Assembly: GCA_903848655.1 (NCBI GenBank)
Contig: CAINGT010000125.1
Location: forward strand, 1 to 33,185
DNA: 33,185 nt
Direction of reading: 5' to 3'
Origin: an uncultured Sphingomonadales bacterium
GTDB lineage: Bacteria > Pseudomonadota > Alphaproteobacteria > Sphingomonadales > Sphingomonadaceae
In this document: positions 13,860 to 19,639 of the stretch, piece by piece
Position numbering within the stretch: the stretch's first letter is position 1
Layout: each line of letters opens with the position of its first letter
Notes under the pieces: generated by a model
What the model saw: only the letters and a program-made list of their open reading frames with translations
Database searches by the model: none
What the model was told of the DNA's origin: nothing
Position numbers and translations under genes: made by a program

Positions 13860-16142
13860 ATGGCAACGCTGACAGCTCACGCGAGTCCCCGACGGGCGCG
13901 GCGGTTGCCGCGCTGGTGGCGGCGTGTTCTGCTGGCCTTGCGCCGCGCCAATGTCTTTGCGCTGCTCGAACTGATCGCCGCCGTGATGCTGGCAGCGATG
14001 GTGGCGCTCAGCTGGGCCCAGCTTAATCCGCAGCATGTCGCGGGTGATCAGCTGCTCCCGGCCAAGCTGACCACGACTTTGTTGATCGGGACACTGGTTC
14101 CCGCGCTGGCGCTGATCGTGTTGAGCGGGCGGCGGATCGCGCTACGCCGCGCCGCGCGCAGCGTGCTGGGCAGCAACGGGCGGCTGCATGTGCGGCTTGT
14201 GTGGCTGTTTTCGCTAATCGCGGCAGTGCCCACGCTGCTGGTGGCGATTTTTGCCTCGCTCTTGTTCCAATCGGGGGTGGAATTCTGGTTTTCCGACAAT
14301 TCACGCGGGATGCTGGAAAATGCCAACAGCCTCGCCAAAGGCTATTACGCTGACAAATTGCGCGACGTGGGTAAGGAAAGCGTGGCGATGGCGGGCGATT
14401 TGCGCAGCTATCTGGCGCAAGCGCCGATCACCAGCCCGGAATTTGCCGAAGGCTATTCGTGGCAAGTGATCAGCCGCAAACTCGATGAATCGGCGATAGT
14501 CGAACGCGGCGAAGATGGTGCCTTGCGCACCGCCGCCATCGTCGATCCCAACCGCAACAACGACCGCCAACGCGTGACCGAAGCCGAATTGCGACGCATC
14601 GCAGCGGGAGAGCCGGTGGTCGTCAACGCCTCGGCTGAAAAGATCGAGGCGATCACCCCCATCGACAAGCCGCGCGGGCTCTATCTGTTCGTCGCGCGCA
14701 ATTCCGATCAATTGGCCTATAGCCAGTGGAAACGTGCCGAATCGGTGCTTGGCGCATATGATATGCTCACGCGGCGCGCGCGCGCGTTGCAAGTGCGGTT
14801 CAATCTGGCCTTGCTGGGGATTTCGCTCGCGCTGGTGATGCTGGCGGTGTGGGTGGCGCTGCGGTTTGCCGACCGCCAGGTGGCTCCTTTGATCGAACTG
14901 GTATCGGCGGCGCGCAAAGTCGGCAGCGGCAATTTCGCGATGCGCGTCGCTTCGGGCAAAGGCGCGGATGAAGTCGGGATGCTTGCGCGCGCGTTCAACC
15001 GCATGACTGCGCAGCTTGAAACGCAGACCCGCGCGCTGGTGCGCGCCAATGCCCAGATCGATTTGCGCCGCACGTTTATCGAAGCGGTCATCGAATCGAT
15101 TACGGCCGGAATCGTCTCGATTGATCGCGACCGCACAGTGCGGCTGATAAACAGTTCGGCGCAGAAACTGTTGGGCGATGGCGGTGGCAGCGATGCGGTT
15201 GGCCAAGCCTTGGCGCATGTCGCGCCACAGCTCGATCAACTGGTGCAAAGCGGCGAAAGCAGCGGGATCGTGCACTATGCCAAAGGCGGTGATTTGCTCA
15301 CGCTCGCGGTCAAAGTCGCGCAAGACGCCAATGGCCATGTCGTGACATTTGAAGATATCACCCGCCAATTGGTCGATCAGCGCCGTGCCGCGTGGTCCGA
15401 TGTGGCGCGGCGGATCGCGCACGAAATCAAAAACCCGCTGACCCCGATCCAACTTGCGACCGAACGGCTCAAACGCCGCTATCGCCGCCAGATCGTGACC
15501 GACCCCGAACTGTTCGAGGAATTGACCGCGACGATCATCCGCCAAGTGGGCGATTTGCGCCGCATGGTCGATGAGTTTTCGCAATTCGCGCGGCTGCCCA
15601 AACCGGTATTCCGGCCCGAAGATGCGGCAGAACTCGCGCGTCAGGCGCTGTTTTTGCAGGAAGTGTCGCACAATGCGATCAGCTTTGCCTATGACGGGCC
15701 GACATTCGCGCCGTTTGCAGCAGATCGCCACCAGTTCGGCCAAGCGATGACCAATGTGCTCAAAAACGCGATCGAGGCCATCGAGGCGCGCGCGCGGGTC
15801 GAGGATATCGATTATCGCGGGCGCGTCTCGGTCGCGATTGCGGCTGATGCGCACGCCATCACGATCAGCGTGACCGATAATGGCATTGGCCTGCCGGCCG
15901 AACGCGACCGGATCCTGGAACCTTATGTCACCACGCGCGACAAAGGCACTGGGCTGGGGCTCGCAATCGTCAACAAGATCGTTGAGGAACACGGCGGCGA
16001 AATGGCCTTTGCCCCGGCGGTGGGCGGCGGCACGTGTGTGACCATGCGGTTTGCCTGTGCGCCCGCGCCCGATGGAGAAGACGATGGTGCGCCATCACAC
16101 CCGGCGCAATCCCCAGTCGCGCTAACCAGCAGCGTGCGTTGA
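13860..16142 (+). CDS. ntrY: Membrane sensor histidine kinase NtrY
   Basis: NtrY is the membrane kinase paired with NtrX in alphaproteobacteria, linked to nitrogen metabolism and in some species to redox and envelope signals. The protein has 760 residues. Hydrophobic segments lie near residues 33-53, 72-90, 112-137 and 315-336, with a periplasmic sensing region of about 175 residues before the last. HAMP follows (about 337-389), then PAS (about 405-500), then His521 in RRIAHEIKNPLTPIQ and a complete ATPase domain (NVLKNAIEA, VTDNGIGL, GTGLGLAI). The frame is open further upstream into ntrC, but the first sensible start is the ATG at 13860. No good ribosome binding site precedes it. Confidence 0.94.
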   Translation: MATLTAHASPRRARRLPRWWRRVLLALRRANVFALLELIAAVMLAAMVALSWAQLNPQHVAGDQLLPAKLTTTLLIGTLVPALALIVLSGRRIALRRAARSVLGSNGRLHVRLVWLFSLIAAVPTLLVAIFASLLFQSGVEFWFSDNSRGMLENANSLAKGYYADKLRDVGKESVAMAGDLRSYLAQAPITSPEFAEGYSWQVISRKLDESAIVERGEDGALRTAAIVDPNRNNDRQRVTEAELRRIAAGEPVVVNASAEKIEAITPIDKPRGLYLFVARNSDQLAYSQWKRAESVLGAYDMLTRRARALQVRFNLALLGISLALVMLAVWVALRFADRQVAPLIELVSAARKVGSGNFAMRVASGKGADEVGMLARAFNRMTAQLETQTRALVRANAQIDLRRTFIEAVIESITAGIVSIDRDRTVRLINSSAQKLLGDGGGSDAVGQALAHVAPQLDQLVQSGESSGIVHYAKGGDLLTLAVKVAQDANGHVVTFEDITRQLVDQRRAAWSDVARRIAHEIKNPLTPIQLATERLKRRYRRQIVTDPELFEELTATIIRQVGDLRRMVDEFSQFARLPKPVFRPEDAAELARQALFLQEVSHNAISFAYDGPTFAPFAADRHQFGQAMTNVLKNAIEAIEARARVEDIDYRGRVSVAIAADAHAITISVTDNGIGLPAERDRILEPYVTTRDKGTGLGLAIVNKIVEEHGGEMAFAPAVGGGTCVTMRFACAPAPDGEDDGAPSHPAQSPVALTSSVR

Positions 16143-16156
16143 AGGACGGATCGTAC

Positions 16157-17548
16157 ATGGCATTGGATATCCTGATCGTCGATGATGAACGCGACATTCG
16201 CGATCTCGTGGCGGGGGTGCTGAGCGATGAGGGCTATTCGTGCCGCGTCGCCGCTGACAGCACGGCTGCGCTGGCGGCCGTCGATGAACGGCGGCCGAGT
16301 CTGGTGCTGCTCGACGTGTGGCTCCATGGCAGCCCGATGGACGGGCTGGAAGTGCTCGACGAAATCAAGAAGCGCGAACCCGAATTGCCGGTGCTGATCT
16401 TTTCCGGCCATGGCAATATCGATACCGCGGTTTCGGCGATCAGCCGGGGCGCGATGGATTTTCTGGAAAAGCCGTTCGAGGCCGAACGCCTGCTGCTGCT
16501 GGTCGAACGCGCCACCGAAACCGACCGCTTGCGCCGCGAAAACGCGCGGTTGCGGCGCGATTTCGCGATGGCCGATGCGTTCACCGGCAATTCCCCGGCG
16601 ATCAACGCGGTGCGCGCCACGCTCAAACGCGTGGCGCATACCGGCAGCCGCGTGCTGATTACCGGCCCGGCGGGGTCGGGCAAGGAAGTCGCCGCGCGGC
16701 TGCTCCACAGTTGGAGCCCGCGCACCGACAATCCGTTCGTCACCGTCAATTCGGCGCGCATCACCCCCGAACGGTTTGAACAGGAACTGTTCGGTGAAGA
16801 AGCCGATGGCAAATTGGTGCGCGCGGGCCTGCTCGAAATGGCCGATGGCGGCACGCTGTTTCTGGATGAAGTGGCCGATATGCCGCCATCGAGCCAAGCG
16901 CGCATTTTGCGCGTGCTGACCGAACAGGCCTTCGTGCGCGTGGGCGGAAATCGCCAGATCCGCGTCGATGTGCGCGTGGTGTCATCAAGCTCGCGCCCGC
17001 TGGAAAAAGAGATTGCCGAGCGGCGGTTTCGCGAGGATTTGTTTTACCGGCTGAATGTCGTGCCGGTGGCGATTCCCCCGCTGGCCGACCGGCGTGACGA
17101 TATCCCTTCGCTGATCGATCATTTCTTTGCGCGCTTTGCCAGCGAACAAAGCCTGCCCGCGCCGGGGGTTGCGGTCGAAGCGATGGCCGCGCTGCAAAGT
17201 TATGACTGGCCGGGCAATGTGCGGCAATTGCGCAATGTGGTCGAACGCACGATCATCCTTGCCCCGCGCGGGCGGCTGGCTCGGATCGAGGCTGATATGC
17301 TGCCCGCCGAAATCCTGCGCACGCCGATGGTGGGCGACAGCGGCACCGCCGCGCTGATGGGGGCGCCCTTGCGCGAAGCACGCGAAAACTTTGAACGCGA
17401 ATACTTGCGCGTGCAGATCCGCCGGTTTTCCGGCAATATCTCCCGCACTGCCAGCTTCATCGGCATGGAGCGGTCAGCACTGCACCGCAAGCTCAAGCTG
17501 CTGGGCATGGTCGAACGGCGAGAGGATGAAGAGGAAGAGGCGACCTGA
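16157..17548 (+). CDS. ntrX: Response regulator NtrX
   Basis: NtrX is the partner of NtrY. The protein has 463 residues. The receiver phosphoacceptor is Asp53 ([10 protein letters not shown]). The AAA+ domain keeps Walker A GPAGSGKE (170-177) and Walker [12 protein letters not shown], but the GAFTGA loop present in NtrC is missing: NtrC reads GHEKGAFTGAIARHIGKF where this protein reads [14 protein letters not shown]. It therefore should not remodel sigma-54 polymerase directly and probably acts as a DNA-binding regulator through its Fis-type HTH ([21 protein letters not shown]). The ATG has an AAGGA about ten bases upstream. Loss of GAFTGA is usual for alphaproteobacterial NtrX. Confidence 0.95.
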
Positions 17549-17624: not shown

Positions 17625-17732
17625 AGGGATACGCGGTACCGGACCGGCAGGTTTTCGATCCTCGCTGAACCCGTGCCAGATTGCCAGCCGCCGGGTCATC
17701 GGGGGTTAGCCAAAACCACAGGAGTCGGCACA

Positions 17733-18302
17733 ATGACCGGACGTACCCTTACCGCCCGTGCTCGCGCGCCAAAGGCCGAAGATGAACAGGATATCGCACC
17801 CGTGGTGCTGATTCCCGGCGGCAAAGGCCAAAACTTGCAGGACGTGTTTCTCAACCATTTGCGCAAGCACAAGATTCCCGTAACGATGTTCCTTGTCAAA
17901 GGGGTTAAATTGCAGGGGATTGTCACGTGGTTTGACAATTTTTCGATCCTGCTGCGGCGCGATGGGCAGTCGCAACTCGTCTACAAACACGCCATCAGCA
18001 CGATCATGCCGGCGCAGCAACTTGCAGTCGGCCATTTTCAGGCACCGGGTGAAGAGTCACACCGCAAGCGGCTGTTGCAGGACATATTTCTGTCGAGCGT
18101 CCGCGATGCCGGGGTGCAAGTCACGATGTTTCTGGTCAACGGGGTGATGCTGCAAGGCAAAGTCGCCGCTTATGACTTGTTCTGCATGTTGCTCGAACGC
18201 GAAGGCTATGTGCAACTGGCGTACAAACATGCCGTTTCCACCATCCAGCCCGCCGGGCATGTCGATCTGTCGGGCGATTGGGATGGCGAAGCGCCTGAAT
18301 GA
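17733..18302 (+). CDS. hfq: RNA chaperone Hfq with two tandem Sm domains
   Basis: Hfq promotes pairing of small RNAs with mRNAs, normally as a hexamer of about 80-residue subunits. This 189-residue chain holds two complete Hfq cores, about residues 31-93 and 112-173, joined by about 18 residues. Both keep the Sm1 pattern ([11 protein letters not shown] and [11 protein letters not shown]) and the Sm2 signature YKHAISTI / YKHAVSTI, plus the proximal-site Gln (LQD), Lys and His. Domain 2 differs: the basic rim (HLRKHK in domain 1) is SVRDAG, and the distal-face lysine is methionine (Met139). Three such chains could form a pseudohexamer. The start at 17733 has AGGAG nine bases upstream. It overlaps hflX by four bases (ATGA). 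Confidence 0.95.
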
Positions 18303-19639
18303 GCGGCTTTGAATTCGGGCGCAATCCCGATGATCTGAAGGGCGAAGTAACCCGTGGCGCGCCAGCGCTGGTGGTGGTGCCCGACATGCGGCAAAAATCT
18401 GGGCTCGATGCCGATGCGCGGCTGGAAGAAGCCTGTGGGCTGGCGCTGGCAATTGGGCTGCATGTGGTCGATACGCTGGTGCTGCCGATCCGCCAGGTGC
18501 GCCCGGGCACGCTGTTCGGCGAAGGGCAAGTGGACAAGATCGGCGTCGCCTGCACCCAGGCTGAGGCCGATCTGGTGGTGGTCGATGGCGCGCTATCGGC
18601 GATCCAGCAGCGCAATCTGGAACAGCGGCTAGGCCGCAAAGTGATCGACCGCACCGGGTTGATCCTTGAAATTTTTGGCGAACGCGCCGCCACTGCCGAA
18701 GGGCGGTTGCAAGTCGAACTCGCACATCTCGACTATCAGGCTGGTCGGCTGGTGCGGTCATGGACTCACCTTGAACGCCAGCGCGGCGGGTTTGGCTTTC
18801 TTGGCGGGCCGGGTGAAACGCAGATTGAGGCTGACCGACGCCTGATCCGGGGCCGCATGGCGCGCATCCGGCGCGAATTGGAACACGTGCGCCGCACGCG
18901 CGGTCTGCACCGCGAACGCCGCCAACGCGCGCCGTGGCCGGTCATCGCGCTGGTTGGTTATACCAATGCCGGCAAATCGACGCTGTTCAACCGGCTGACC
19001 GGGGCCGATGTCATGGCGCAGGACTTGCTGTTTGCCACGCTCGATCCGACAATGCGCGCGATCCGCCTGCCGGGGGTGGACAAGGCGATCCTGTCCGACA
19101 CGGTCGGGTTCATTTCCGACTTGCCGACCCAACTGGTCGCGGCATTTCGCGCCACGCTTGAAGAAGTGACCGCCGCCGATCTGATCGTGCACGTGCGCGA
19201 TGTTTCCAACCCTGCCAGCGCCGAACAAAAGAGCCAAGTCGAAGCGATTTTGGCCGATCTGGGCGTCATCAGCGCCGATGGAACCGGCGTGCCGATGATC
19301 GAGGCGTGGAACAAGCTCGATCTGCTTTCGCCCGATGACCGTGCGATGCGGCATGATCTGATCGCGCATGGTGTGCCCGAACGCCAGGCTGTGGCGGTTT
19401 CGGCGGCAACGGGTGAGGGGGTTGCCACGTTGGTCGAAGCGCTTGGCGCGCTGCTGACCGGCGGGGCGCTGACGCTCGATCTGACGCTGGCAATGGCCGA
19501 AGGGCAGAAACTGGCATGGCTTCACGCGCATGGCGAAGTGCTGTCGGAACACGCGGCGCAAGATGCCGACGATTTGCCCGCCACCCGCATTCGCGTCCGG
19601 CTAACCCCGCGCGAATTGGGCCGGTTTCAGCACTTGTGA
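18299..19639 (+). CDS. hflX: GTPase HflX
   Basis: HflX is a ribosome-associated GTPase that splits stalled or heat-damaged 70S ribosomes; hfq-hflX is a classic neighbouring pair. The 446-residue protein has the N-terminal HflX domain, a coiled region with [13 protein letters not shown] (169-181) and a long basic helix, then the G domain with G1 GYTNAGKS (220-227), G3 DTVGF (267-271), and G4 as NKLD in EAWNKLDLL. It starts within the hfq stop (ATGA). It ends 19 bases from the convergent mazG stop, leaving no room for a long separate terminator. Confidence 0.95.

Follow-up and report, generated by a model that had tools for sequence, protein, structure and literature searches.

We found a family-wide division between the two halves of the fused, two-domain RNA chaperone Hfq of the Sphingomonadales, above all a reciprocal exchange on the distal face (N28K in the first Sm domain, D1, and K31M in the second, D2; E. 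coli numbering), which, judged from the sequences, holds the charge of that face constant across the family. As to how such a chain is used, we lean slightly towards a reading in which three chains form a ring of alternating D1 and D2, with the charged work resting on D1; basic rims and tails would number three each, and the distal face would be three-fold.

The protein in question (189 aa) is encoded by hfq at 17733..18302 (+ strand) of the window, by which we mean the whole stretch of 33,185 nucleotides analysed here, and was identified by ORF translation, Pfam and an NCBI model. Its frame opens with ATG, runs through 189 residues without an internal stop and is preceded by a probable ribosome binding site visible in the sequence (AGGAG, 17720..17724, + strand). 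The gene order ntrX-hfq-hflX is the usual setting of hfq, with ntrX upstream (16034..17548, + strand; NF051870, 736.6 bits against a cut-off of 600) and hflX downstream (18299..19639, + strand; TIGR03156, 442.6 bits against a cut-off of 216.75), which begins at 18299 in overlap with the hfq stop codon. Further ntrB-, ntrC- and ntrY-like genes lie upstream of ntrX, and mazG lies past hflX on the opposite strand; ntrX, hflX and mazG score above curated cut-offs, ntrY is named from the Pfam domain NtrY_N, and for ntrB and ntrC the names come from domain content together with sub-cut-off matches. The encoded chain starts with an N-terminal extension (residues 1-34, 17733..17834), mostly predicted with very low confidence, which bears a TGRTLTAR motif common to many relatives. 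It continues with D1 (residues 35-93, 17835..18011), a linker (residues 94-115, 18012..18077, from measured lengths), D2 (residues 116-173, 18078..18251) and an acidic C-terminal tail (residues 174-189, 18252..18299, from the translation and tail counts), all on the + strand, both cores being delimited by profile match, alignment and structure prediction. The linker probably combines the former tail of the first hfq copy, whose descent we infer, with the N-terminus of the second. In its own genome (97% complete) no other match to this Hfq was found, so that every Hfq function of the cell probably falls to it.

That the chain holds two full Sm cores, as an earlier note on this DNA had read, is borne out by PF17209 (Hfq), which matches two stretches of the protein (E 2.6e-55, above the Pfam cut-off), and by the NCBI two-domain model NF010691, which scores 300.9 bits (cut-off 270) over residues 28-186. 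We reject a frameshift, an assembly error or a cloning fusion as its source, an explanation of vanishing probability, since the same unbroken two-domain frame occurs at 187 of the 210 loci compared, from many assemblies (the 187 include the window's own locus, the remaining 23 having been chosen as single-domain cases), NCBI curates NF010691 for this very fusion, and it has been published for Zymomonas in the available text of PMC2877685, which agrees with the earlier note's guess that the fusion might already be known. A match to HflX is present in the fetched stretch at 208 of these 210 loci. In a sample of the order comprising 397 genomes (by hand count, 336 from the same family as the window and 61 from seven other families), a two-domain Hfq was found in 322 of the 336 family genomes and a single-domain one in 14, likewise by hand count. 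Here rows with E < 1e-60 were counted as two-domain and each of the 24 weaker rows was inspected, 23 with the single-domain Pfam model and one (genome G225) by its locus, and ten of the 24 turned out to carry two decayed domains. None of the 61 genomes of the seven other families in the order sample gave a two-domain score, and the ten of these checked by Pfam have one match each, except for a draft genome (G001), in which a full Hfq (L168, G001:C9) is accompanied by a partial match on another contig (G001:C82:5520-5633), perhaps a contamination. One genome of the order sample (G078) has no Hfq match whatever. No independent fusion was found elsewhere among 192 genomes sampled from the class, of which 161 gave a match, and 120 sampled from the phylum, of which 80 did, small samples that partly share their genomes and in which only the same three genomes, all of the window's family, exceed the two-domain cut-off. 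A single-domain locus (L117, genome G317) has an Hfq frame that continues for about 150 residues past the core and has no HflX in the 5.2 kb fetched, which may reflect a frameshift or a local rearrangement.

For comparison, the cores of the 187 two-domain and 23 single-domain sequences were cut out and aligned to E. coli numbering, and 13 of the 187, with cores identical to another's, were dropped to give 174 two-domain chains with unique cores. In a species tree of HflX and NtrX for 94 chosen rows (72 two-domain and 22 single-domain, L117 being left out for want of HflX), whose root side is weakly supported (42), all 72 two-domain rows come together in a tandem clade (SH-aLRT 99). The single-domain rows, those of the same family included, branch outside it, except for one from a draft genome of another family (L125), which falls inside on a branch of 2.04 and is taken as a long-branch error. 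A tree of the domains of 48 two-domain chains, limited by its 59 columns and long branches, recovers D1 as one clade (95) and D2 as one clade (99). One ancient in-frame fusion of two hfq copies is the simplest reading. D1 is closer than D2 to the single-domain Hfqs, with a mean identity of 0.80 vs 0.62, and Ka/Ks is low in both halves (medians 0.016 and 0.022), with no clear difference between them (D2 exceeds D1 in 160 of 307 close pairs). On account of the low Ka/Ks of both halves and the several fixed residues specific to D2, we reject the view of D2 as a whole as a decaying passenger. As a separate observation, a TGRTLTAR-like motif, loosely defined, precedes D1 in 99 of the 174 unique two-domain chains and in none of the 23 single-domain proteins, and on the tree it is found almost only in the Novosphingobium/Erythrobacteraceae clade.

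The proximal face is common to both halves, each of which has the YKH and the Gln pointed out in the earlier note. Q8, F42, K56 and H57 (Q36, F70, K85 and H86 in D1 of the window protein) are present in both halves of the window and, with F or Y accepted at 42, in at least 169 of the 174 chains for each half. On the distal face the claim of a loss in D2 was right in that the Lys at E. coli position 31 is gone, Met139 standing in its place with the distal Gln in both halves, and wrong in that the base-contact residues are retained and a lysine has been gained at position 28 of D1 (N28K, Lys56 of the window protein), a change absent from that reading. The window protein has K56 and K59 at positions 28 and 31 of D1 and N136 and M139 at those of D2, whose core also has L149 and Q172. 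Among 79 representatives of less than 88% identity, from which a clade of ten chains with no tail (see below) was left out, K28 occurs in D1 in all 79, N28 in D2 in 78, K31 in D1 in 78 and M31 in D2 in all 79. Across the 174 unique chains, D1 has K28 without exception and D2 has M31 in 166, the eight exceptions all belonging to the tail-less clade. Summed over both domains, positions 28 and 31 together bear exactly two positive charges in 172 of the 174 chains and three in the remaining 2; a metagenome-assembled sequence (L097) with Gln31 in D1 has Lys28 in D2, and its sum is still two. Single-domain Hfqs have N28 and K31 in 23 of 23 cases, and 46 further loci of the class, from 45 genomes, have N28 in 44 and K31 in 46. 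The base-contact residues 25, 29, 30, 32, 33, 52 and 61 are kept in at least 163 of the 174 chains in D1 and D2 alike, with F or Y accepted at 25 and V or I at 30.

As described in the available parts of the respective papers, the backbone amide of Lys31 contacts a phosphate in a solved complex, the purine pocket is formed by two adjoining subunits, and six positive protuberances, which we assume to be Lys31, steer the RNA (PMC6422490), and N28 makes a water-mediated contact at the second pocket (PMC10628458). With the base contacts kept and the count at 28 and 31 held at two, an alternating ring would retain its pockets and its six charges, with the latter in three-fold spacing. D2 is distinctive at two other positions as well. 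At position 41, Leu is found in 80% of D2 domains and Asn at all 46 loci compared from elsewhere in the class (45 genomes). Position 63, where the last core strand ends (codon 18246-18248 in D2 of the window), is a third fixed difference between the halves, with Met in D1 in 73 of the 79 representatives and Gln in D2 in 78 of the 79.

At the rim, RKHK (44-47) in D1 and RDAG (124-127) in D2 had been correctly cited in the earlier note, and the proposed replacement of the basic patch in D2 stands as a weakening across the family, short of a full loss in that RDAG still contains Arg16 (E. coli numbering). The rim of the window protein comprises R44, K45, K47, R75 and R76 in D1 and R124, D125, G127, E155 and R156 in D2, where the further changes are N13S, N41L, M63Q and, in the alphaproteobacterial RR pair, Glu155 for the first Arg. 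Close relatives do not keep equivalent basic rims in both halves: two of them (L032 and L034) likewise have RDAG in D2, and positions 16, 17 and 19 are all basic in D1 of 167 of the 174 chains, in D2 of 2 of the 174 and in 23 of the 23 single-domain proteins. The mean net rim charge, taken over positions 16-19 and the RR pair, is 4.76 for D1, 0.44 for D2 and 4.91 for the single-domain proteins. Of the D2 domains in the 187 rows, 74% still have R16 and 94% the second Arg of the RR pair, while 87% have Glu for the first. The fewest changes on the species tree at positions 13, 16, 17 and 19 are 30, 20, 25 and 36 for D2 and 0, 0, 12 and 6 for D1, and by this reckoning the basic patch of D2 has been eroded repeatedly. 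In a deep clade, the D2 rim charge is 3 to 5 in five of the ten sampled members (L018, L191, L188, L176 and L182), which show the distal swap despite this basic rim; therefore, rim loss appears neither universal nor simultaneous with the fusion, and the swap seems older than most of it, though these five may instead have regained their rims. A basic rim patch is thus present in D1 but not in D2; such a patch on each subunit is typical of Gram-negative Hfqs and not obligatory for the Hfq family, rim arginines being fewer in Gram-positive Hfqs according to the available text of PMC10628458.

Such a pattern could also arise without any new function, an account we regard as unlikely, by which a fused, three-chain alternating ring tolerated the loss of half its rims and the 28/31 swap was an early, compensated accident that purifying selection then held in place. 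Paralogous Sm/Lsm rings offer a parallel for such a neutral ratchet. The frequent changes of D2 at positions 13, 16, 17 and 19, at the counts just given, are expected of released sites, and the basic D2 rims retained by some deep-clade members and the low and not clearly different Ka/Ks of the two halves are also in its favor; however, the near-fixation of M31, N28 and Q63 in D2 and of K28 in D1 among the 79 representatives is unlike free drift, and in 172 of the 174 chains the sum of positives at 28 and 31 stays at two.

The acidic tail follows only D2, and D1 is followed instead by a linker of 16-25 residues. The last ten residues contain on average 4.6 acidic ones in single-domain and 4.6 in two-domain chains, with at least three in all 164 tailed two-domain chains. 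In the Caulobacter Hfq, the acidic tip of the tail packs on the rim of the neighbouring protomer and restrains annealing, as stated in the available portion of PMC6561178. A clade of ten small-genome relatives (genus code g13; L132, L137-L140, L142, L147-L149 and L157; support 100) is tail-less, with 0-1 acidic residues. Its D1 keeps K/R19 in 3 of the 10 chains, as against 164 of 164 elsewhere, and has a rim charge of 2-5, whereas this charge is 5 in all 19 of the tailed chains that belong to that genus. In the same clade the linker measures 16-17 residues, the D2 helix is shorter by two residues, K31 of D1 is changed to Arg in 10 of 10, M31 of D2 is replaced in 8 of 10 and H57 of D1 is changed to Gln in 5 of 10, and its Hfq looks to have been remodelled throughout. 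The weakening of the D1 rim along with the loss of the tail agrees with a pairing of tail and rim, as an association from one clade, that is one or two events, in which much else has changed. Phe102 of the linker, invariant in an alignment of 40 sequences, was considered as a general anchor and rejected, since this position is aromatic in at least 110 of the 174 chains, 171 of which are covered by the matches listed.

An AlphaFold2 model of the single chain, computed with 40 sequences, has a pLDDT of 78.4 and a pTM of 0.70, with 38 of the 189 residues below pLDDT 50. Each half alone takes the Sm fold and, in a fold search against PDB chains, matches solved Hfqs (D1 to 6gwk with Z 10.1, D2 to 5szd with Z 9.5). 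This pTM suggests that the two halves have a definite position relative to each other in the chain. We hold it improbable that six chains instead build a D1 hexamer, which would anneal RNA, and a D2 hexamer, which would serve as a second binding ring with poor rims, the two being stacked or tethered through the linkers: a linker that spans 16-25 residues would permit this and each half by itself resembles solved Hfq subunits, but the charge at 28 and 31 is constant only when the halves are summed, which suggests a shared face, and the placing of the halves in the single-chain prediction also speaks against it. That same linker counts against the alternating ring too, as it is long enough for other arrangements. 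In the alternating ring that we favor, three chains would close with D1 and D2 in turn, and the base pockets on both faces would be preserved all round. The positives at 28 and 31 would still number six per ring and would merely be relocated, with Lys28 and Lys31 on D1 and Asn28 and Met31 on D2 giving a three-fold face. Annealing of sRNA to mRNA would be driven by the three D1 rims, with the D2 rims released from this role. The acidic tail, which in the Caulobacter Hfq packs on a neighbour's rim, is present only on D2; because both ring neighbours of a D2 would be D1, tails would equal basic rims in number, with three tails guarding three rims. Such a protein would anneal sRNA and mRNA as other Hfqs do, with half the rims and matched brakes. 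More doubtfully, we posit that the distal face of the three-fold ring reads RNA in six-base instead of three-base steps and that each of its three basic rims is served by exactly one acidic tail; if so, charge-rich and charge-poor triplet pockets would alternate, and annealing and autoinhibition would be stoichiometrically matched.

The architecture of the window protein is that of the two-domain Hfq of Sphingomonadales modelled as NF010691/PRK14091 (ZMO0347). In its available text, Yang 2010 describes a pair of Sm domains for ZMO0347 of Zymomonas mobilis and for six other species of Sphingomonadales, raises the question of a ring made from three chains, and does not mention unequal halves, to which we add the residue-level pattern (PMC2877685). 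The best match in both sequence and fold is the Hfq of Caulobacter crescentus (PDB 6gwk; PMC6561178, in the part available), which has a basic rim like that of D1 and an acidic tail of like kind, but differs in that each chain has a single Sm domain, so that all six rims and all six tails are alike, and in having N28 and K31 in every subunit. Escherichia coli Hfq, whose proximal Q8, F42, K56 and H57 and distal base contacts recur in both window halves, differs in its single domain, in having Lys31 and the rim patch on every subunit and in its longer tail (the last from the available part of PMC6561178). The heteromeric Sm/Lsm rings of eukaryotes also combine non-identical Sm domains, and seven-subunit rings are described in the available text of PMC2877685. 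Their subunits are separate chains, whereas in the window Hfq the difference sits within one chain. From the portions available of other papers, an hfq insertion mutant of Z. mobilis has lower tolerance of several inhibitors (PMC2877685), repression of thnR by the sRNA SuhB is Hfq-dependent in Sphingopyxis granuli (PMC6563040), and Novosphingobium aromaticivorans is named among species with two hfq-like copies (PMC3474761). The corresponding portions of PMC9797736, PMC4004385, PMC5770649 and PMC5575007 contain nothing on two domains or on residues 28 and 31, and no description of unequal Hfq halves was found in the PMC literature searched, in part by excerpts. The fusion and the three-chain idea are, accordingly, already published; what appears to be new here, within this limited literature, is the family-wide division between the halves seen in the alignments, above all the reciprocal N28K/K31M.

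In an Hfq of six identical subunits any mutation hits all six, so it is hard to count how many rims, tails or distal lysines are needed. With the halves separated within one chain each can be altered alone, which would make the stoichiometry of annealing patches and autoinhibitory tails directly testable. The subunits of eukaryotic Sm/Lsm rings are specialised, and the two-domain Hfq would offer a bacterial, single-chain parallel to that specialisation.
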